Part shown: one piece after another, positions 15,997-25,819 of the stretch
How positions within the stretch are numbered: position 1 is the first letter of the stretch
How the letters are laid out: the number at the start of each line of letters is the position of its first letter
Source: a virus
DNA length: 33,486 nt
Strand: one strand, 5' to 3'
Virus record (IMG/VR): IMGVR_UViG_3300044712_000995
Span: 1-33,486 of that record
Made by a program: the position numbers and the translations under genes
Notes under the pieces: model-generated
Told to the model about the DNA's origin: nothing
The model's input: the letters and a program-made list of their open reading frames with translations, nothing else
Databases searched by the model: none

Positions 15997-18482
15997 TGGC
16001 TAAAGCCGCGCCGCTGATCAACGCATTTTCCGCCGGGGAGTTGTCCCCGTTGTTCGATGCGCGCTCAGACCTCGAGGAATACGCTCAGGGTTGCAAGCGC
16101 ATCGAAAACTTCCTGCCGCTGGTCGAAGGCCCGGCCGAGCGCCGCGGCGGGACGCGCTTCGTGCGCGAAGCCAAAGACTCGACCGACCGCACCGGCATTC
16201 TGCGCTTCGAGTTCAACGTCGAGCAGGCATACATTATCGAGGTCGGCGATCAGTATCTGCGTTTCTACACCGATCACGGCATCGTCATGAACGGTTCTGC
16301 GCCGCTTGAAGTCTCGACACCATGGATTGCCGCTGACCTGTTCGATGCCGACGGCAACTACCTGCTGCGCTCGGTGCAGTCGGGCGACGTTCTCTACATC
16401 ACACACGTCGACGAGACGTATCCGCCCTACAAGCTGACGCGAAGCGGTGCGCTGTCGTGGGCGCTGGCTGAATTCACGCCCGACGGCGGGCCGTTCGAAG
16501 ACCTTGACCCCGACGAGACAGTGACGGTCTACGCCAGCAGCAACACAGGCACCGTGACGCTGACGGCTTCGGCCGCCGGCACTTTTACGTCAGACGATGT
16601 CGGGACGCTGTTCTACCTCGAGCAGAAGCTTGCCGACACGACGAAGTCATGGGAGGCCGGCAAGTCGATCAATGCGAACGACATCCGGCGTGCTGAAAGC
16701 CGCAGCTACCAGGCCGTCAATACCGCCACGTCTGGCTCTATCCAGCCAGGCCACACCAGCGGCAGCATCTACGACGGCGACAACGGCGTGCAATGGACGT
16801 TCCTTGATCCTGGCTATGGTTGGGCGACCATCACGGCCGTCGCCTCCGGTGGTGGCAGTGCGACCGCCACGGTGCTGTCACGCATTCCGAACGGCGCCGT
16901 CGGGAGTGGGAATGCCTCGACGCGCTGGGCGCGCGGTGCCTGGTCGGATGCCCGCGGCTGGCCGTCGCATGTCACCTTCTTCCGTGAGCGTCTGACTTTC
17001 GCCCGTGCCTCTACGCGGCAACTGTGGGGTAGTCAGTCTGGCGACTTTGAGAACTTCCGTGACCGCGACGATGGCGGCGAGATCGTCAAGGATGCCGCCT
17101 TCACCATCGAGGTCACCAGCGACCAGGTCAATCGCATCGAATGGTTGTCCCCGGCCGATGCCCTACTGGTCGGCACGGCTGGCGGCGAGTTCTCCGTGCG
17201 CGAGATCACAACGACAGAGGCGTTCGGTCCCGGGAACATCAAGTCGAAGCCGGAGTCGTCCTATGGCTCGCGTGCGGTCAACCCTGCGCGCGTCGGTGAC
17301 TCGGTGCTGTACGTGCAGCGTTCTGGGCGAAAGCTTCGCGACATCGCCTACACGCTGGAGACGGAGGGCTATCGCTCGACGAACCTGTCCGTTCTCGCGC
17401 GTCACCTCTTCCCCAAGGGCAAGGCCATCGTTGCCATTGCCTACCAGCAGGAGCCGAACTCGATCATCTGGGTTCTGCGCTCCGATGGCCAACTGTTCGC
17501 GGCGACGCTCAACGTCAACCAGCGCCGCTTTGGCTGGCACCGGCACCCGATCGGCGGCGATGGCATTGTCGAGGCAATCGAGGTCATCCCGAATCCGGAT
17601 ACCGACGCCGACGAACTCTGGATGGTCGTTCGCCGCACAATCGACGGATCTACGGTGCGCTATTTCGAGTACATGGAACCGCCGCTCGACGCCGAGCAAG
17701 ACATCATCGAGGCGTTCTATGTCGATTCCGGCCTGACCTATGACGGCTCGGTCAATGCGACTCTGACGCCTGGGGCTGGTGCCACGGTAGCCGACACTGA
17801 GGGCGTCACCTTCACCGCAGGCTCTGGCGCGTTCGTCGTGGGCGACGTGGGCCGCGAGATTCGCCGCCGCTACCAGGATGCCGACGAGGTCTGGCACACG
17901 GCGCGCGCGCTGATCACTGGCTATACCAGTGCGACGGTTGTCACGGCGACGATCTACTCCGCTTTCCCATCGACGGCGGCTATTGCCGCGAACGGATGGG
18001 CGCTGACGGTGACGACGATCAGCGGACTCGACCATCTCGAAGGCGAGACGCTCGACATCCTCGCCGACGGTGCCCCGCATGCACAGGAGACCGTCGCGTC
18101 GGGGTCCATCACGCTCGACCGGCCGTCGTGGTACGTGCACGCCGGCCTTCCGTGTCCGGCGAAGCTGAAGACCATGCGCCTCGATGCCGGCGCCATGAAC
18201 GGCACGGCGCAGGGGAAGACCAAGCGCGTCGATACCGGCGTCGTGCGGTTGCTGAACACGGTAGGCGGCAAGGTCGGGCCGGACGAAGACAACCTCGACG
18301 AGATTCTGTTCCGCAGCCCCGACGACCTGATGGACGAACCGCTGCCCCCGTTCGATGGTGACAAGGACATATCTTGGCCGGACGGCTATACCACCGACGC
18401 GCACCTGATGTACGTCAACGACCAGCCGCTGCCGGCAACGGTCATCGGCTTTATGCCCATCGTGGAAACGCAACCCAGATGA
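15996..18482 (+). CDS. Tail tubular protein B / nozzle (T7 gp12-like)
   Basis: The 828-residue protein starts AKAAPLINAFSAGELSPLFD and continues with YAQGCKRIENFLPLVEGPAE and RRGGTRFVREAKDS, the hallmark of podophage nozzle/tail tubular B proteins. Later conserved points are WPSHVTFFRERLTFARAS, LWGSQSGDFENF, LVGTAGGEFSVREI and YGSRAVNPARVGDSVLYVQR. The rest is beta-propeller and beta-rich, as in T7 gp12 (about 790 residues). Six copies would form the tail nozzle and the platform for the fibres. GAGG precedes ATG at 15996, and the stop overlaps the next gene (ATGA). Confidence 0.94.
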   Translation: MAKAAPLINAFSAGELSPLFDARSDLEEYAQGCKRIENFLPLVEGPAERRGGTRFVREAKDSTDRTGILRFEFNVEQAYIIEVGDQYLRFYTDHGIVMNGSAPLEVSTPWIAADLFDADGNYLLRSVQSGDVLYITHVDETYPPYKLTRSGALSWALAEFTPDGGPFEDLDPDETVTVYASSNTGTVTLTASAAGTFTSDDVGTLFYLEQKLADTTKSWEAGKSINANDIRRAESRSYQAVNTATSGSIQPGHTSGSIYDGDNGVQWTFLDPGYGWATITAVASGGGSATATVLSRIPNGAVGSGNASTRWARGAWSDARGWPSHVTFFRERLTFARASTRQLWGSQSGDFENFRDRDDGGEIVKDAAFTIEVTSDQVNRIEWLSPADALLVGTAGGEFSVREITTTEAFGPGNIKSKPESSYGSRAVNPARVGDSVLYVQRSGRKLRDIAYTLETEGYRSTNLSVLARHLFPKGKAIVAIAYQQEPNSIIWVLRSDGQLFAATLNVNQRRFGWHRHPIGGDGIVEAIEVIPNPDTDADELWMVVRRTIDGSTVRYFEYMEPPLDAEQDIIEAFYVDSGLTYDGSVNATLTPGAGATVADTEGVTFTAGSGAFVVGDVGREIRRRYQDADEVWHTARALITGYTSATVVTATIYSAFPSTAAIAANGWALTVTTISGLDHLEGETLDILADGAPHAQETVASGSITLDRPSWYVHAGLPCPAKLKTMRLDAGAMNGTAQGKTKRVDTGVVRLLNTVGGKVGPDEDNLDEILFRSPDDLMDEPLPPFDGDKDISWPDGYTTDAHLMYVNDQPLPATVIGFMPIVETQPR

Positions 18483-18907
18483 AGATCGAAGCCTTTCGCC
18501 CCGATCATCTCGAAACGCTGATCCTGCAGCCGCAGCAAGAGCGCGCACGTCGCTTCCTCGGCACTCCTGGCTATGGCAAGGCGCTGGCGAACGGCATGGC
18601 ATACGCTGCCATTGATGACGATGGGACGGTGCTTTGCTGCGCTGGATTGCTGCCGCTGTGGGAGGGCCGGGCCGAAGCTTGGGCGCTAATGGGTACCGAC
18701 CTAAAGCGCAATTTCCTGTGCATCCATCATGCCGTCGTGCGCTTCCTCAACATGGTCGAGTTTCGTCGCATCGAAGCGGCGGTCGATGCCGAGTTCTGCA
18801 CCGGCCGGAAATGGCTTGAGCGGCTTGGCTTTCTGCAGGAGGGATACATGAAGGCATACACCCCGGACGGACGCGACTGCATCCGGTTTGCGAAAGTGAG
18901 GGCGTAA
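18479..18907 (+). CDS. T7 gp13-like, GNAT-fold protein
   Basis: A 142-residue product overlapping the nozzle stop by ATGA. It has a GNAT-like layout: MKIEAFRPDHLETLILQP start, AAIDDDGTVLCCAGLLPLWE strand pair, WALMGTDLKRNFLCIHHAVV, then RRIEAAVDAEFCTGRKWLER and LGFLQEGYMKAYTPDGRDCI, the usual acetyltransferase end. Proteins of the T7 gp13/DUF2833 group share this fold and position between the tail and internal virion genes, and T7 gp13 is needed for virion morphogenesis. Whether this one still binds acetyl-CoA cannot be told. Confidence 0.8.
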   Translation: MKIEAFRPDHLETLILQPQQERARRFLGTPGYGKALANGMAYAAIDDDGTVLCCAGLLPLWEGRAEAWALMGTDLKRNFLCIHHAVVRFLNMVEFRRIEAAVDAEFCTGRKWLERLGFLQEGYMKAYTPDGRDCIRFAKVRA

Positions 18908-19497
18908 TGGAAGCGATTTTAACGAGCGCCGGAATGTCTGCTGCTACGGCGGCAACCGTTTCAACGGTAATACAAGTCGTCAGCACGGCCGCCTCTGTGA
19001 TGGGGGCCATGTCGCAGGCAAATTCAAATTCCGAAAACTATTCTTCCCAGGCAGGGACGAATGACTACAACGCCGCTGTCGCTCGCAACAGCGCCACGGC
19101 AGCGCTTAATGAATCGACTGCCGCCCAGGCGGCGCAACGACGCCGCGCGCGGGAACTCCTCGGCGAACAGCGCGCAGGCATTGCGCAATCCGGGACCGGG
19201 TTTGGCGGAAGTAATGCCGACATCATGGAGAGATCTACAACGCTCTCAGAACTGGACGCCCTGAATCTCGCTTACGAGGGCGACATGAAAGCGAAAAATT
19301 ACTTGGCACAGGCCGGCATGGAGGACTACAACGCCGCGCTGAACAGACGGAATGCGCGCACAGCGAAAACGGCCGGGTACTTAGGCGCAGGGCGATCCCT
19401 GTTGGTTGGAGTCGGAAGCTACGGCAGAGGCGTTGGCGCCGATGCGACTTACCGCCAGAGCCTGCAAACCGCCGCATCGCAATTTGCCTGGGATTGA
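18907..19497 (+). CDS. Internal virion protein (T7 gp14-like)
   Basis: The 196-residue protein has a hydrophobic Ala/Val-rich N-terminus (MSAATAATVSTVIQVVSTAA) followed by a long Gln/Asn/Ala-rich helix (YNAAVARNSATAALNESTAA, then QRRRARELLGEQRAGIAQSG) and a Gly-rich end. This is the pattern of the smallest podophage ejection protein, T7 gp14, which forms an outer-membrane channel during DNA entry. It begins in a TAATG overlap with the gp13-like gene and is followed by two larger ejection proteins, in T7 order. Confidence 0.84.
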   Translation: MEAILTSAGMSAATAATVSTVIQVVSTAASVMGAMSQANSNSENYSSQAGTNDYNAAVARNSATAALNESTAAQAAQRRRARELLGEQRAGIAQSGTGFGGSNADIMERSTTLSELDALNLAYEGDMKAKNYLAQAGMEDYNAALNRRNARTAKTAGYLGAGRSLLVGVGSYGRGVGADATYRQSLQTAASQFAWD

Positions 19498-19500
19498 CGA

Positions 19501-21546
19501 ATGCCGAAAATCGCCCAATACACGCAACAGACGACACCGCAAAGCGCCGGAATGGCGCGCGGATATTCAACGCCGGAGGTGAGCGCCGGGAGCGGATTGT
19601 CTGACTTCGGCAGTGCGGGTATCGCCGTTGCTGACAGGATGCAGCGCCAATCCGAAATCGATGCCGAGAGACAACGAATCGAAGACGAAAAGCGCCAACG
19701 AGCACAGGAAAAAATTCAACTGGATGACGCCAAGGTGGAATCCGCCAAGGTTTTGTCAGATGCCCGCCTGCAATGGACCGAACAACTTCTGAAAGCCAAG
19801 GAAAGCGCTGCGCCTGGCGCCTCCGGATTGACACCGCAGCTGCTTTCTCAGTTTGACGAGTACAGCAAGAAGGTTCTGTCCGAGAGGCCAAACGCGCACA
19901 CGCAAAAGATACTCGCCGAAGGGTTGCAAAACTTGCGGACGCATATCGGGCAGGACGCATTGCAGTTCGAGTCGAATGCCCGTGTCGACAACCGCATCAA
20001 TACGCTGGAAGCCGGGATAAACAAAACAGCCCAGGCGGTGCTGGCAATGCCTGGGCAACGCTCTACCGCGCTGGCAGAGCAACTGTCCATGATCGACGGC
20101 ATGGAAATCCCGCCGAAGCAGAAGGAGGCGTTGAAGGAACGCGCCCTGCAGACCATCGACAGCGCCGGCCTAAATGGCGAGATCGGCGCCGCGCGCAACT
20201 CTACCAAGGCGTTGGACGGCCTTCTGGAGCGCATGAACAAGGGCGAGTTCCCCGGCGTGCCTGCGCAACACCTGGCCGCCGCCGAGGCTCGCATCGGCAA
20301 CTTCAAGAATACGCTGATCGTCAAGGCGGAAGCCGCCGAGCGCCGCAAGCTGGCCGGACTGGAGCAGCAGGAGCGTCGCCTGTCGTGGTACGTCGAGAAC
20401 GGCCGTGACATCCCGCCAGCGGAATTCGACCGCTTCACCAAGGAATCGCGCGGTACGCCGTTCGAGAGCGCGGCTCAGGGGCTTGTGGTTGAACAGAAAG
20501 CGGTATCGGCGCTAACGCTGCTTCCGCCTGATGCGATGCTCGCCAAGGTCAAAGACATTGAGGCCGGCTTCGGCCCGAACCCAACCAAGGAGCAGATTGT
20601 CCATGTCGAGAAGCTCAAGCGCTTCGCCGACCGCAGCATCAAGCTGCTGCGTGAATCGCCGCTCGACTTCGCCACCCAGCGCGAGGGTGCCGTGGTGACG
20701 CCGCTCGACCTCAACAAGCCCGACACATGGGGCGAGACGCTGGGCGCCCGCGTTCCCATCCTGCGCGAAACTTCGCAGCGAACCGGCGTGGCGCCGAAGG
20801 GTCTGCTGCCGCAGGAGGCCGCTGCGCTGTCGAACGCCATCAAGAGCGCGCCGCCTCAGCAGCAGGCCGAGTACCTAGGCAAGCTGCGCGCAGGCTTCGG
20901 CGACGACCGCGTCTTCAAGGCCACCATGCAGCAGATCGCGCCGGACAACCCCGTGATCGCCGCGGCAGGCGTAGCGTCCGCGCGTGGCCTGGAGTCGACG
21001 TTTGGGCGAAGCGTCTCCGAGTTGATGCTGCGCGGGAATGCCTTGTTGCGACAAGATACTCACACAGATGGCAAGCCGTCTGGTGGGAAGTTAATGCCTA
21101 TGCCGAAAGACGATCTGATGGATCGCTTGTTCGCCACCCACGAGAAAGATGCTTTCGCCGGCAAGGAACAGGCACGCAACGGTGCTTTGCAATCCGCCAA
21201 GGCCATCTATGCCGCAATGTCCTCGGACAGTGGAGATTATTCCGGAGTGCTGAATACGTCGCGCTGGGATTCTGCGATGAAATTGGCGACCGGCGGAATC
21301 GAGAAGCATCAGGGCCGCTCCATCGTTTTGCCCTACGGCATGGCCTACGGCGACTTCAAGGACCGCCTCAAGGCCAAGACAGTCGAGATGGTCAAGGCTG
21401 GCACGCTGGCGCCTGGCATCACGCCGGAGAACCTGCGCGGCATGCCACTGGAGAACGTCGGCGACGGCCGCTACGTCTTGCGTGTCGGTGACGGCACGCT
21501 GATCGGCAAGGACGGACGCCCGGCGATTCTGGACCTGAACCCATGA
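19501..21546 (+). CDS. Internal virion/ejection protein (T7 gp15-like position)
   Basis: A 681-residue, almost entirely helical soluble protein. A disordered start (TPQSAGMARGYSTPEVSAGS) leads into a charged coiled-coil (DAERQRIEDEKRQRAQEKIQ). Repeated helices rich in Ala, Glu, Lys and Leu follow, with a small C-terminal domain (RGMPLENVGDGRYVLRVGDG). No enzymatic motif is seen. The position between gp14-like and the next large ejection proteins is that of T7 gp15, which forms the periplasmic part of the ejection channel. It begins 4 bases after the previous stop and overlaps the next ATG (ATGA). Confidence 0.8.
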   Translation: MPKIAQYTQQTTPQSAGMARGYSTPEVSAGSGLSDFGSAGIAVADRMQRQSEIDAERQRIEDEKRQRAQEKIQLDDAKVESAKVLSDARLQWTEQLLKAKESAAPGASGLTPQLLSQFDEYSKKVLSERPNAHTQKILAEGLQNLRTHIGQDALQFESNARVDNRINTLEAGINKTAQAVLAMPGQRSTALAEQLSMIDGMEIPPKQKEALKERALQTIDSAGLNGEIGAARNSTKALDGLLERMNKGEFPGVPAQHLAAAEARIGNFKNTLIVKAEAAERRKLAGLEQQERRLSWYVENGRDIPPAEFDRFTKESRGTPFESAAQGLVVEQKAVSALTLLPPDAMLAKVKDIEAGFGPNPTKEQIVHVEKLKRFADRSIKLLRESPLDFATQREGAVVTPLDLNKPDTWGETLGARVPILRETSQRTGVAPKGLLPQEAAALSNAIKSAPPQQQAEYLGKLRAGFGDDRVFKATMQQIAPDNPVIAAAGVASARGLESTFGRSVSELMLRGNALLRQDTHTDGKPSGGKLMPMPKDDLMDRLFATHEKDAFAGKEQARNGALQSAKAIYAAMSSDSGDYSGVLNTSRWDSAMKLATGGIEKHQGRSIVLPYGMAYGDFKDRLKAKTVEMVKAGTLAPGITPENLRGMPLENVGDGRYVLRVGDGTLIGKDGRPAILDLNP

Positions 21547-23321
21547 CATTCGAGTTATACGCGGACGAGATCAGCAACCGGGTCGCCACGCTGCCCGGCG
21601 TCAGGACGCCCGAGGCCGGCGCCTTCGACAACTTCTTCAGCGGCGCTGGCCGCTATGCGATGCAGGGCCTCGCGAAGACAGGTCGCGCCATCGACATGCT
21701 CGGCGCTGTCGCCCCGATCATTGAGGACAAGATCAGCGGAGGCACCGAGGCGCAGGACCGCTACTTCAAAGAACACGACGAGGTCTTCAACCGCGCTGTC
21801 GATTACTGGACGCCGAAACCCGGTGAGGTCGGGGTGGCTGGCGAGGTGGTCGGCCAACTGCTCGGTACGTTGCCACAGGTCATCGCCTCGCCGGGTCTAA
21901 CCATCGCCTCCACGCAACTTTCGACGGCCGAGGATTTGGTACGCAAGGGCATTGATGCCGACAAGGCGCAGGCTGCTGGTGCGGTGCAGGCCGCCGGGCT
22001 TGGCCTTGGCATTTGGGTGCCGATCCTCGGCAAGACGCTGGCGCAGCGCATGCTGCTTGGCGGCGCCGGCTTCAACGTCGCGCAAGGTGTGGCTACGCGC
22101 GGCGCGACGGCGGCGCTGCTCGACGGCACAGCAGCGGAAGGCGACTTCAAGGCGCTCGACGCCAGCGGGATAGCACTCGACGCGCTGCTCGGCTTGGCCT
22201 TCGGTGGGCTGGCCCATATCCGGCCCGAGATGCGCGCCGAGGGCGAAGCATGGGCAAAGCGGCTGGAGGATTGGTCTGCCAAGCTCAAGCCGACCGACGT
22301 CGACGCGCTGGTGGCGATGCGTCAGGCGCAGCACTTGAGCGCCGACAGCATGCCGGGACGGCCGGTGGATATTGTCGACCAGGACGCCCACGTTCAGCGC
22401 ATCCGTCAAGCGATCGATGATCTGGCCGCCGGCCGTCCGGTGGATGTGGAAGGCATGCCGGCGGCGCGCTTCGAACCAGACCCGGTCAGGAAGGCGCAGG
22501 ACGAACAAATCGCAGCGGCCATCCGCTCGGAGGTCCAAGCGATTGCCACCGCATACGACACGGTGATGGCATCGCCTTTAGGCGCAGCAGGCGATCCGAT
22601 CGTGCACATTCGTCCCGATGACATCGAAGGCGTAATCCTTGCACGGGGCGGCATGAAGGGGCTGAATGACATCGAGGTTAAGGGATCAGGTTACGGGCTG
22701 ATCAAATTCATCTGGCGCCACGGCGAAGCCTCCGGGAAGGCGAAAGAGCACCAGATTACGAAGGCCGATTTGATGGCCTTCCCGATGGTGATTCGTGATT
22801 TCGAACCGACTCGGCCGGCGGCAAAAGACGGCTCGCGAGGGCGTGAGTGGCGCGTTCCGCTCCCTGACGAAAACGGGAAGGTACGGACGGTGGTTTTTGC
22901 CGACAACCTGATCAGCGGCCAGAGCGGTCGCCATCTGGTTACTGTTCATGTTCAGGAGCCGAAAAAGGTCGGATGGGACTTGCCGCTTTCGGAAAAGAGA
23001 AAAGCGGCTGATCAGGCTCCCGGTGCCGAGGTTGGGAGCCTCACACCGGATACCGCTCGCGCCGTTTCGCTTCCCGACACGCGAGGGCCTGAAAAACCGC
23101 TCGATAAAAGTGTAGCACAGAGCCCGCTTGCTGCCGAAGCCGCCCGCTTCGCCGCCGAGACCCCTGATCTCCCAATCGCCATTGGCAAGAACGCCGACGG
23201 CTCCGACATTGTGACGACTCCGGCCAAGTTGCTGGAGGACGCAGACAACGCTATGAAGCGCGCGCAGGACGACGTGAAGCTCCTGGATGTTGCCGCCGCT
23301 TGCTTACTGGGGGCTTCCTGA
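21543..23321 (+). CDS. Ejection protein with PBECR-like nuclease domain
   Basis: The 592-residue protein begins with a helical part (about 1-280) with hydrophobic, possibly membrane-inserting segments (GQLLGTLPQVIASPGLTIAS, AGLGLGIWVPILGKTLAQ, GIALDALLGLAFGGLAHI). Residues about 350-480 form a different, beta-rich domain: IVHIRPDDIEGVILARGG, then GSGYGLIKFIWRHGE (His near 393), HQITKADLMAFPMVIRDFEP, EWRVPLPDENGKVRTVVFAD and HLVTVHVQEP. This resembles the phage Barnase-EndoU-Colicin E5/D-RelE-like (PBECR) nuclease families found in phage polyvalent proteins. A flexible tail follows. Position among ejection genes implies delivery into the host with the DNA. RNA cleavage is inferred from the fold resemblance only. 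Confidence 0.78.
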   Translation: MTFELYADEISNRVATLPGVRTPEAGAFDNFFSGAGRYAMQGLAKTGRAIDMLGAVAPIIEDKISGGTEAQDRYFKEHDEVFNRAVDYWTPKPGEVGVAGEVVGQLLGTLPQVIASPGLTIASTQLSTAEDLVRKGIDADKAQAAGAVQAAGLGLGIWVPILGKTLAQRMLLGGAGFNVAQGVATRGATAALLDGTAAEGDFKALDASGIALDALLGLAFGGLAHIRPEMRAEGEAWAKRLEDWSAKLKPTDVDALVAMRQAQHLSADSMPGRPVDIVDQDAHVQRIRQAIDDLAAGRPVDVEGMPAARFEPDPVRKAQDEQIAAAIRSEVQAIATAYDTVMASPLGAAGDPIVHIRPDDIEGVILARGGMKGLNDIEVKGSGYGLIKFIWRHGEASGKAKEHQITKADLMAFPMVIRDFEPTRPAAKDGSRGREWRVPLPDENGKVRTVVFADNLISGQSGRHLVTVHVQEPKKVGWDLPLSEKRKAADQAPGAEVGSLTPDTARAVSLPDTRGPEKPLDKSVAQSPLAAEAARFAAETPDLPIAIGKNADGSDIVTTPAKLLEDADNAMKRAQDDVKLLDVAAACLLGAS

Positions 23322-25819
23322 TGGCCTACGAACACTGCATCGCCCGATTGAAACAGGCCGCCGGCCGCAATCTATCCGATGATGAACTCGGCAAGCTATT
23401 CGAGCGCATTCACAAGGCGGCGCTCGACATTAAGGCCGGGCGCGTCAAGCCAACCGTCGTTGCGACTGGCACCGTCGATGGCATCGTGCAGCAGGCCGCC
23501 CGGGAAGCCGCGGTGCAGATGGTGCGCGAGGCCGAGCAAACGCAGCGCCAGGCGCAACTGCAGATCACCAAACTATCCGCCCGCATGCGCGACGTGGACG
23601 CCATTACCTCGCAGGGCGTCGCATCGCTTGACGCCGTCGAGAAGACCATCGTCAGGGACTACTCGGGCAAGATCAAGACCGAAAGCTTGGAGCAGCGCGT
23701 CGCCGGCCAGGAGGCATATTTCAAGTCGAAGTTACTGGCGACCTGGGACGCGCTGGGCAATGATTGGATGGGCTTCTTCCAGAGCCGCGACAAATTGCTG
23801 ACGCTGGTGCGTGAGCTGCGCGGCGAGGATACCGGCGACGCCGTGGCGAAGAAAGGCGCGAAAGCCTTCCACGACACTGCCGAGGAAGCGCGCCAGGTAT
23901 TCAACGCGGGTGGCGGCAATGTCGGCAAGCTCGACGACTGGGGCATGCCGCAGCACCACAGCCAGGAGAAGGTCGCGTTGGCCGGTCGGCAAGCATGGGT
24001 CGATGCGATCCTGCCAAAGCTCGACCGTAGTCGCTACGTCGACGACCTCGGCCAGCCGTTCGATGATGCCAGGATGCGCGACTTCCTCGGCAAAGCCTGG
24101 GACGCCATCGCCACCAACGGCCATGCCAAAGACGATCCCGGCAAGTTCAACGGCGCCGGCAAGACGGGCAACCGCCACGCCGAGAGCCGACAGATTCACT
24201 TCAAGGATGCCGAGAGCGTCATCGACTACTGGAATACCTTCGGCGAGAAGACGGCCGTCGAGATTCTGATGGGCCACGTCGAGACGATGGCAAGAGACAT
24301 CGCCTTCATCGAGCATTTTGGGCCGAGCCCGGCCATGACGTACAAGACGCTGCGTGATCGCGCGTTGAAGGCCGCGGCGATGGCCGAGCCGGCGAAGACG
24401 ACCAGCCTGGAAGGCCGCGCGGTCAAGCTCGACAACCTGTTCGAGTACGCCAGCGGGCGCACCAAGCCGAGCGCGAACATGGCCGTGTCTGGGGCCATGG
24501 ATGCGCTGGCGAACCTCAACAGCGCCGGTAAGCTTGGCGGCGCGGCGCTGGCTTCGTTCTTCGGCGACAAGCCGATGATGGAAGTCGTCTCGCATCTGAA
24601 CAACTTGCCGCTGCTGCAACGCTGGCGCACCGAGCTGTCGCTGCTGAACCCGGCGAACAAGGCAGACCGCAAGCTGCTGCAGCAGCAGGGCCTGATGCTC
24701 GAAGGCGTGCGCTCGGGGTTGAACCGCTTCTACGAGGGGCTGGGCCAGACCGGCACGACCGGCAAGTTGGCGAACGCCGTGATGCGCATCACCGGCATGT
24801 CGTCGATCAACGAAATTCGCAAGGGCGCATTCGGTGCTTCGCTGATGTCGGCTATCGGCGAGCAGATAGCCGCCGGCAAGACCTTCGCTGATCTGCCCGA
24901 CACCGACATGCGCACGCTCAAACAGTACGGCATCAGCGCCGACGATTGGGCGATCTGGCAGAAGGCCGCACTGATGGACATTGGCGCTGGCAATACGCGC
25001 GCTTTGACGCCAGAGGCAATCAGCCGTATCCAAGGGATCGATGCCGCGAGCAAGCGTAATGCCATCGTCAAATTGCTTGGAGCCGTCAATACCGAATCCG
25101 ACTTCGCCATCGTTACGCCAGGGTGGAAAGAACGCGCGCAGTTTTATGCGGACTTGCAACGCGGCACAGTCAAAGGCGAGATCGCTCGTTCGGTATTGCA
25201 GTTCAAGTCGTTCCCTTGGACACAGTTTCAACGAATGATGGATGCGGTCGCCAACAAGGACACGCCGGTATCGAAGGCGGCCATGACGGCGGCCCTTGTG
25301 GCTTCAACGACGATAGCGGGCGCGATGCTGTTGCAGACTCGCGAAATGCTCGCCGGCAAGGATCCGCGCGACGCAACGAGGCCAGAGTTTTGGGGTGCTG
25401 CATTTCTACAGGGTGGCGCGCTCGGCATCTACGGCGATTTCCTGTACGGCGCAGGCCATACCCGCTACGGATCAGGAGTTCTCGAGTCTGTCGCTGGGCC
25501 GACCATTGGCCCGCTAATGGAGATGGGCCTTGTTCAGCCGATAAACGCGCTAGCTCGGGCCAAGGATGGCAAGGAATCGCATTTCTTTGCGCAACAAGCG
25601 CAGGACGCAAAAGGGTTCATCCCCGGCGGAAACGTTTGGTACACAAAAGCAGCGATGGATCACCTGATTTTCCAGCAGGTGTTCGAGGCGCTGTCCCCGG
25701 GCTATCTGTCGAGTATTCGGCAGAGAACCTTAAAGGAATACGGGCAGGACTGGTGGTGGACGCCTGGGGATACGACCCCGTCCCGCCCGCCGAATTTGAC
25801 AGCAGTAGCAGGAGGGTAA
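23321..25819 (+). CDS. Large internal virion/ejection protein
   Basis: An 832-residue, mainly helical protein, last of the ejection set (position of T7 gp16). It starts in a TGATG overlap. The N-terminal part is a long charged helix region (MVREAEQTQRQAQLQITKLS). The middle has KLDDWGMPQHHSQEKVALAG and a run of amphipathic helices. Near 655-675 is a hydrophobic stretch (KAAMTAALVASTTIAGAMLL), followed by Gly/Ala-rich FLQGGALGIYGDFLYGAG. It ends YGQDWWWTPGDTTPSRPPNL, a tail seen in other podophage ejection proteins. No lytic transglycosylase signature is visible, unlike T7 gp16, so it is probably the membrane-spanning part of the DNA channel. Confidence 0.82.
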   Translation: MAYEHCIARLKQAAGRNLSDDELGKLFERIHKAALDIKAGRVKPTVVATGTVDGIVQQAAREAAVQMVREAEQTQRQAQLQITKLSARMRDVDAITSQGVASLDAVEKTIVRDYSGKIKTESLEQRVAGQEAYFKSKLLATWDALGNDWMGFFQSRDKLLTLVRELRGEDTGDAVAKKGAKAFHDTAEEARQVFNAGGGNVGKLDDWGMPQHHSQEKVALAGRQAWVDAILPKLDRSRYVDDLGQPFDDARMRDFLGKAWDAIATNGHAKDDPGKFNGAGKTGNRHAESRQIHFKDAESVIDYWNTFGEKTAVEILMGHVETMARDIAFIEHFGPSPAMTYKTLRDRALKAAAMAEPAKTTSLEGRAVKLDNLFEYASGRTKPSANMAVSGAMDALANLNSAGKLGGAALASFFGDKPMMEVVSHLNNLPLLQRWRTELSLLNPANKADRKLLQQQGLMLEGVRSGLNRFYEGLGQTGTTGKLANAVMRITGMSSINEIRKGAFGASLMSAIGEQIAAGKTFADLPDTDMRTLKQYGISADDWAIWQKAALMDIGAGNTRALTPEAISRIQGIDAASKRNAIVKLLGAVNTESDFAIVTPGWKERAQFYADLQRGTVKGEIARSVLQFKSFPWTQFQRMMDAVANKDTPVSKAAMTAALVASTTIAGAMLLQTREMLAGKDPRDATRPEFWGAAFLQGGALGIYGDFLYGAGHTRYGSGVLESVAGPTIGPLMEMGLVQPINALARAKDGKESHFFAQQAQDAKGFIPGGNVWYTKAAMDHLIFQQVFEALSPGYLSSIRQRTLKEYGQDWWWTPGDTTPSRPPNLTAVAGG

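Follow-up and report, generated by a model that had tools for sequence, protein, structure and literature searches.

The question raised by this locus is whether a protein of a phage ejection cluster carries an RNA-cleaving domain that would enter the host together with the phage DNA. It lies in a 33,486 nt stretch of viral DNA (positions 1 to 33,486 of IMG/VR record IMGVR_UViG_3300044712_000995, here called the window), and the virus record spanning the window is linear. Our preferred reading, to which we give a probability of roughly 0.55, is that a carrier protein of the epsilon15 gp16 type holds, in a slot whose contents can be swapped, a PBECR-like RNase cargo that is ejected with the DNA.

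The gene for the carrier (592 aa, 21543–23321; all features described here are on the + strand) matches phrog_1145 over aa 26–342 (E 8e-35). It is preceded by genes for a gp13-type protein (18374–18907; phrog_4177, E 1.8e-29, and phrog_308, internal virion protein, E 1e-5; the true start is probably within the ORF), a gp14-type internal virion protein (18907–19497; phrog_418, internal virion protein, E 2.7e-15) and a gp15-type internal virion protein of 681 aa that contains no cysteine (19501–21546; phrog_992, head protein, E 1e-51). It is followed by the gene for a gp17-type virion structural protein of 832 aa (23321–25819; phrog_684, E 1.6e-210; alignments to many phage virion proteins cover 98 %). 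As this is the gp13–gp17 gene order of SPN1S and epsilon15, the window protein was taken to be the counterpart of epsilon15 gp16. Assignments for epsilon15 follow the annotated record NC_004775.2 and not the table in a review (PMC8954989), where gene numbers and ejection protein lengths differ; the ejection proteins listed there in Table 1 as gp11, gp12 and gp13 (229, 499 and 708 aa) do not fit the annotated record.

Both ends of the carrier, which sits between the gp15-type and gp17-type genes, are conserved, and full-length homologues were found at L003 and L075 (comparison loci are designated L with a number). The backbone, aa 1–338 (21543–22556), shares 52–60 % identity with L002 and L003, 56 % with L075 and 63 % with L004, and is common to proteins with all of the slot contents described below. 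The C-terminal tail, aa 529–592 (23127–23318), ends in AAACLLGAS, shares 34–50 % identity with the tails of L003, L075 and L004, and has the same pattern in SPN1S_0018. Hence, membership of the ejection cluster, as originally predicted, is supported by the PHROG matches, synteny and conserved ends, and from this context the carrier is probably a virion component that enters the cell by ejection. It had also been noted that no immunity gene is recognised nearby, and indeed the genes on both sides overlap the carrier gene by 1–4 bases, leaving no room for an adjacent one; an effector that is ejected need not have an immunity gene.

Alignments place the candidate cargo domain at approximately aa 346–484 (22578–22994), slightly wider than the 22596–22990 of the original prediction, and both GYGLIKFIWRHGE and the HQITKADL segment are where that prediction had put them. 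Searching viral contigs and bacterial genomes iteratively showed that about 20 distinct viral or prophage loci encode this domain, and the resulting family alignment includes 21 sequences (20 distinct), which are 33–65 % identical to that of the window. Eight residues (G385, K388, H393, G394, D409, P414, R418 and V466) are invariant, and W436 is found in 20 of the 21. The histidine that had been guessed to be catalytic is H393 (22719–22721), in the motif GLIKFIWRHGE (aa 385–395, 22695–22727), and a putative catalytic alcohol, T467 (22941–22943), lies in the last strand, LVTVHV (aa 465–470, 22935–22952); position 467 is T in 15 sequences and S in the remaining six. In pairwise comparisons of the domain, dN/dS values are low (about 0.1–0.5). 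This is a discrete domain that is conserved beyond chance. Nothing convincing was found when the domain and its relatives were searched with tblastn against about 50,700 phage records, or when one relative was searched against 72,556 plasmids. Among 369 genomes of one class, it was present solely in the genome already known to have it and, thus, appears to be rare in the sampled hosts.

Assigning the domain to a known group was less simple. No effector model in Pfam, PHROG or NCBIfam matched the domain in the window protein or its relatives, and a Pfam search of 13 members of the domain family gave no match even at E ≤10. A search of ten virus records with PF18812 returned nothing at E ≤10, and none of the curated PBECR or MuF_C models matched the domain. 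Profiles were also compared; known members for this purpose were gathered from bacterial genomes with the Pfam models, and as the genomes searched yielded no PBECR4 members, the comparison covered PBECR1, PBECR2, PBECR3 and MuF_C. Using hhalign, the domain profile scored 29.4 against PBECR1 (best shuffle 21.4) and 28.3–28.9 against PBECR3 (best shuffle 17.8), and in neither case did any of 40 column shuffles reach the score, though the reported probabilities were just 25–39 %. PBECR2 and MuF_C scored no better than shuffles and were rejected as nearest relatives. Against 400 real-protein decoys drawn from the same pool of phage and bacterial loci, an empirical null of modest size with a maximum of 19.9, the PBECR1 member L032 scored 27.5 and the PBECR3 member L056 scored 21.4; all three PBECR1 members were within the top 2 %, but half of the single PBECR3 members scored at decoy background. 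As a yardstick, the score between MuF_C and PBECR3 is 29.0, and no similarity is detected between PBECR1 and PBECR3, so the domain lies about as near to PBECR1 and PBECR3 as known families lie to one another. A MuF_C match at L021 was discarded, as it is an ordinary Mu-like MuF protein elsewhere in the same MAG. The Burkholderiales MAG that bears L017 has a separate PBECR3 domain on another contig (L054, G001:C112).

In the paper that defines the PBECR group (Iyer et al. 2017, PMC5512222), the defining residues are a His in helix 1 and an S/T in strand 4, MuF and portal fusions are described, and RNase activity is a prediction. The predicted catalytic pair is kept in the family studied here (H393 in 21/21 and S/T467 in 21/21), and a portal fusion (L078–L081) and a ddrB-ParB neighbour (L009) fit the arrangement of PBECR domains in portal/MuF or multidomain virion-locus proteins. 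Together with the profile comparisons, these features suggest that the domain is probably a member of the PBECR clade, and it looks like a previously uncatalogued branch related to PBECR1 and PBECR3. The resemblance that had been proposed from the sequence was recovered by comparing profiles, though for two of the four groups only, and was seen neither by the curated models nor, with confidence, in predicted structures.

AlphaFold models were built from thin alignments of 13 and 21 sequences (pLDDT 78 and 76, respectively). In these models, helices precede a C-terminal sheet of three strands and the His follows a strand, whereas a BECR domain has an N-terminal helix and then four or five strands; GLIKFIW itself is modelled as part of a strand, although PBECR requires a helix at this point. 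Foldseek searches with the domain models found no significant match. In both PDB runs, the listed match of highest probability (0.51 and 0.63, with E-values of 0.4–0.7) was 6CP9 chain C; this entry is a CDI complex of a BECR tRNase toxin with its immunity protein (PMC6851490), and chain C may be either partner. Among the BFVD matches listed, a protein with a MuF C-terminal domain had the highest query TM-score, 0.50. The only match in a PDB profile search, to a viral nucleoprotein (E 0.37), was considered spurious. Hence, structure prediction did not bear out the BECR fold, as neither model shows it with confidence and the Foldseek matches are not significant. Such models, and the silence of the curated ones, are what would be expected if the domain were an injected effector with another fold and activity, whose likeness to PBECR is a coincidence of motifs. 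We consider this unlikely, given that the best PBECR1 and PBECR3 scores exceed those of all 400 decoys and all shuffles, that the catalytic pair is conserved and that the portal fusion exists. A PBECR-like fold is the likely one.

The site occupied by the domain was compared in orthologues sharing the backbone and tail. The same domain is found there in the window, L003, L075 and L017, but in L002 (3995–6787) the site holds a zeta toxin domain (PF06414, E 7e-11), a zeta-toxin-like kinase, and in L004 (441 aa) it is empty. In L005 (4001–6592) and L006 (4001–7345) there are long inserts that include HEXXH motifs (HESGH and HESAH) and further unmatched domains; these inserts gave no match in Pfam and, read at the level of the motif, may be metallopeptidases. 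Identity levels in the domain and backbone also diverge. L011 and L022 share 68 % in the domain and 96 % nucleotide identity in the backbone, and the reverse is seen for L011 and L018, with 87 and 70 %, respectively. The window domain is 61–65 % identical to those of L017 and L009 although the backbones share only 30–36 %, and just 37–41 % identical to those of L075 and L003 although the backbones share 56–60 %. The cargo is exchanged independently of the backbone. The domain is also found behind other N-termini, with ddrB-ParB (E 2e-35) in L009 and SLT in L010, and in a single-chain fusion with a gp17-type protein in L020, and it also forms the C-terminal part of a portal protein (PF04860, E 4e-18, L080:2844–5468). 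We are, thus, in little doubt that the site between backbone and tail is an exchangeable cargo slot, and synteny, the swap with a zeta-toxin-like domain, the portal fusion and the co-occurrence with ddrB-ParB and SLT together give good support for a cargo domain in an ejection-protein locus. That the domain might instead be an ordinary variable structural insert with no role as an effector is a view to which the empty slot of L004, which makes the domain dispensable, and the general mosaicism of ejection proteins (PMC8954989) lend something. It is nonetheless very improbable, as the domain is borne by a portal protein as well as by backbones that are unrelated, is replaced by a zeta-toxin-like domain and keeps an invariant set of catalytic-like motifs.

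Whether the cargo is an enzyme is a separate question. The domain could have the PBECR fold and act as a module for binding RNA or DNA or for virion packing, which is what has been proposed for phage Mu gp30 (Iyer et al. 2017); this non-catalytic precedent (PMC5512222) and the position of the carrier within a structural cluster speak for such a role. Against it, all 21 sequences retain the putative catalytic His and alcohol, and a zeta-toxin-like enzyme occupies the same slot in L002. Degenerate copies of enzymes normally lose their catalytic residues. A non-enzymatic role is, on balance, improbable, and that the domain is an active RNase we put at about even odds. Under the RNase cargo reading, the backbone and tail would do the virion and channel work and the slot between them would hold the PBECR-like domain, most likely a metal-independent RNase using H393 and T467. 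The carrier would be a late product that is packaged into virions and ejected along with the DNA, and the cargo would then cleave host RNA or defence RNA ahead of any phage gene expression, with host mRNA, tRNA or defence RNA as candidate targets.

A further feature concerns the ends at which the carrier and its gp17-type partner abut. The sole cysteine of the carrier, C587 (23301–23303), is the sixth residue from its end, and a single cysteine, always among the last 10 residues, is found in all 36 gp16-type proteins checked, namely 21/21 metagenomic or prophage proteins and 15/15 from named phages (epsilon15, phiV10, SPN1S, Yersinia YeP5, Pseudomonas MPK9, Tr60_Ab31, Burkholderia BcepC6B, Klebsiella BUCT711, Acinetobacter TPWB-05, Vibrio phiVC8, K299, 1.182.O, Pelagibacter Skadi-3, HTVC035P and SI2); extra cysteines in 5′ extensions before the likely start in L009 and L069 were left out of this count. 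The sole cysteine of the partner is C6 (23336–23338), and a cysteine is found within the first 12 residues in 36/36 partners and is the only one in 34 (the exceptions being L072 and TPWB-05); some starts were set by a conserved motif and L019 is partial. The pairs include those of the window, L082 and L088–L101. Among control proteins from the same loci the cysteine frequency is 0.94 %, and only 2/35 have exactly one cysteine and 3/35 have one in the last 10 residues. As gp15 and gp16 of T7 and gp16 and gp20 of P22 contain no cysteine, scarcity of this residue is general in ejection proteins, and the peculiarity of this pair is that each of the two abutting ends has one.

The gp16 plus gp17 pair corresponds by position to the single-chain gp16 of T7, and the one natural fusion found (L020, 5182–9354) has no cysteine in 1391 aa. 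The simplest reading is that a covalent bond ties the end of one chain to the start of the next, and that a fused chain has no need of the cysteines. Cysteine-mediated linkage of the two proteins is, from these patterns, a tentative proposal that we hold somewhat short of even odds. The same caution applies to its extended form, in which the unique pair, probably as a disulfide formed in the virion or periplasm, would join the chains so that together they do the job of T7 gp16 and the cargo, a new PBECR-like RNase, would be towed in on a channel protein. We found nothing in the open-access literature searched on a disulfide or a single cysteine in podophage ejection proteins.

Should the cargo reading hold, one defined slot would serve many short-tailed phages for the delivery of interchangeable enzyme cargo at entry, and the long-predicted PBECR RNases could be assayed directly in a clear carrier. 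It would also be worth searching the slot systematically for unknown early effectors and anti-defence enzymes, and its exchangeable nuclease-like cargo suggests a ready-made weapon that acts as infection begins. For ejection-channel assembly, the cysteine pair would be a simple and testable feature, provided that it does link the two proteins.

In comparison with known systems, the carrier resembles epsilon15 gp16 and SPN1S_0018 in gene position, conserved tail and sole C-terminal cysteine, but the slot of SPN1S_0018 does not contain the PBECR-like domain. The domain shares with PBECR1 (PF18809) and PBECR3 (PF18812) a putative catalytic His after a GxGL/GI motif, an S/T near the end, residence in multidomain virion-locus proteins and profile similarity above decoys; unlike them, it matches no Pfam model and has an additional conserved N-terminal DPxVxIxPEDI...RGG and the conserved W436. 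The active site of CdiA-CT from K. pneumoniae 342, the BECR tRNase of the 6CP9 complex, also includes a His and a Thr, though the Foldseek E-values are not significant, the matched chain may be toxin or immunity protein, and this toxin is delivered by contact-dependent inhibition and has an immunity protein. The logic of injection is shared with the polyvalent proteins (Iyer et al. 2017, PMC5512222; epsilon15 is absent from the text), which carry mosaics of effector domains, with two or more distinct ones in a polypeptide, and the relatives described here have ddrB-ParB and portal fusions. Though relatives add ddrB-ParB or SLT, the window protein differs from the polyvalent proteins in having one recognisable cargo, which this epsilon15 gp16-type protein holds in a defined slot.
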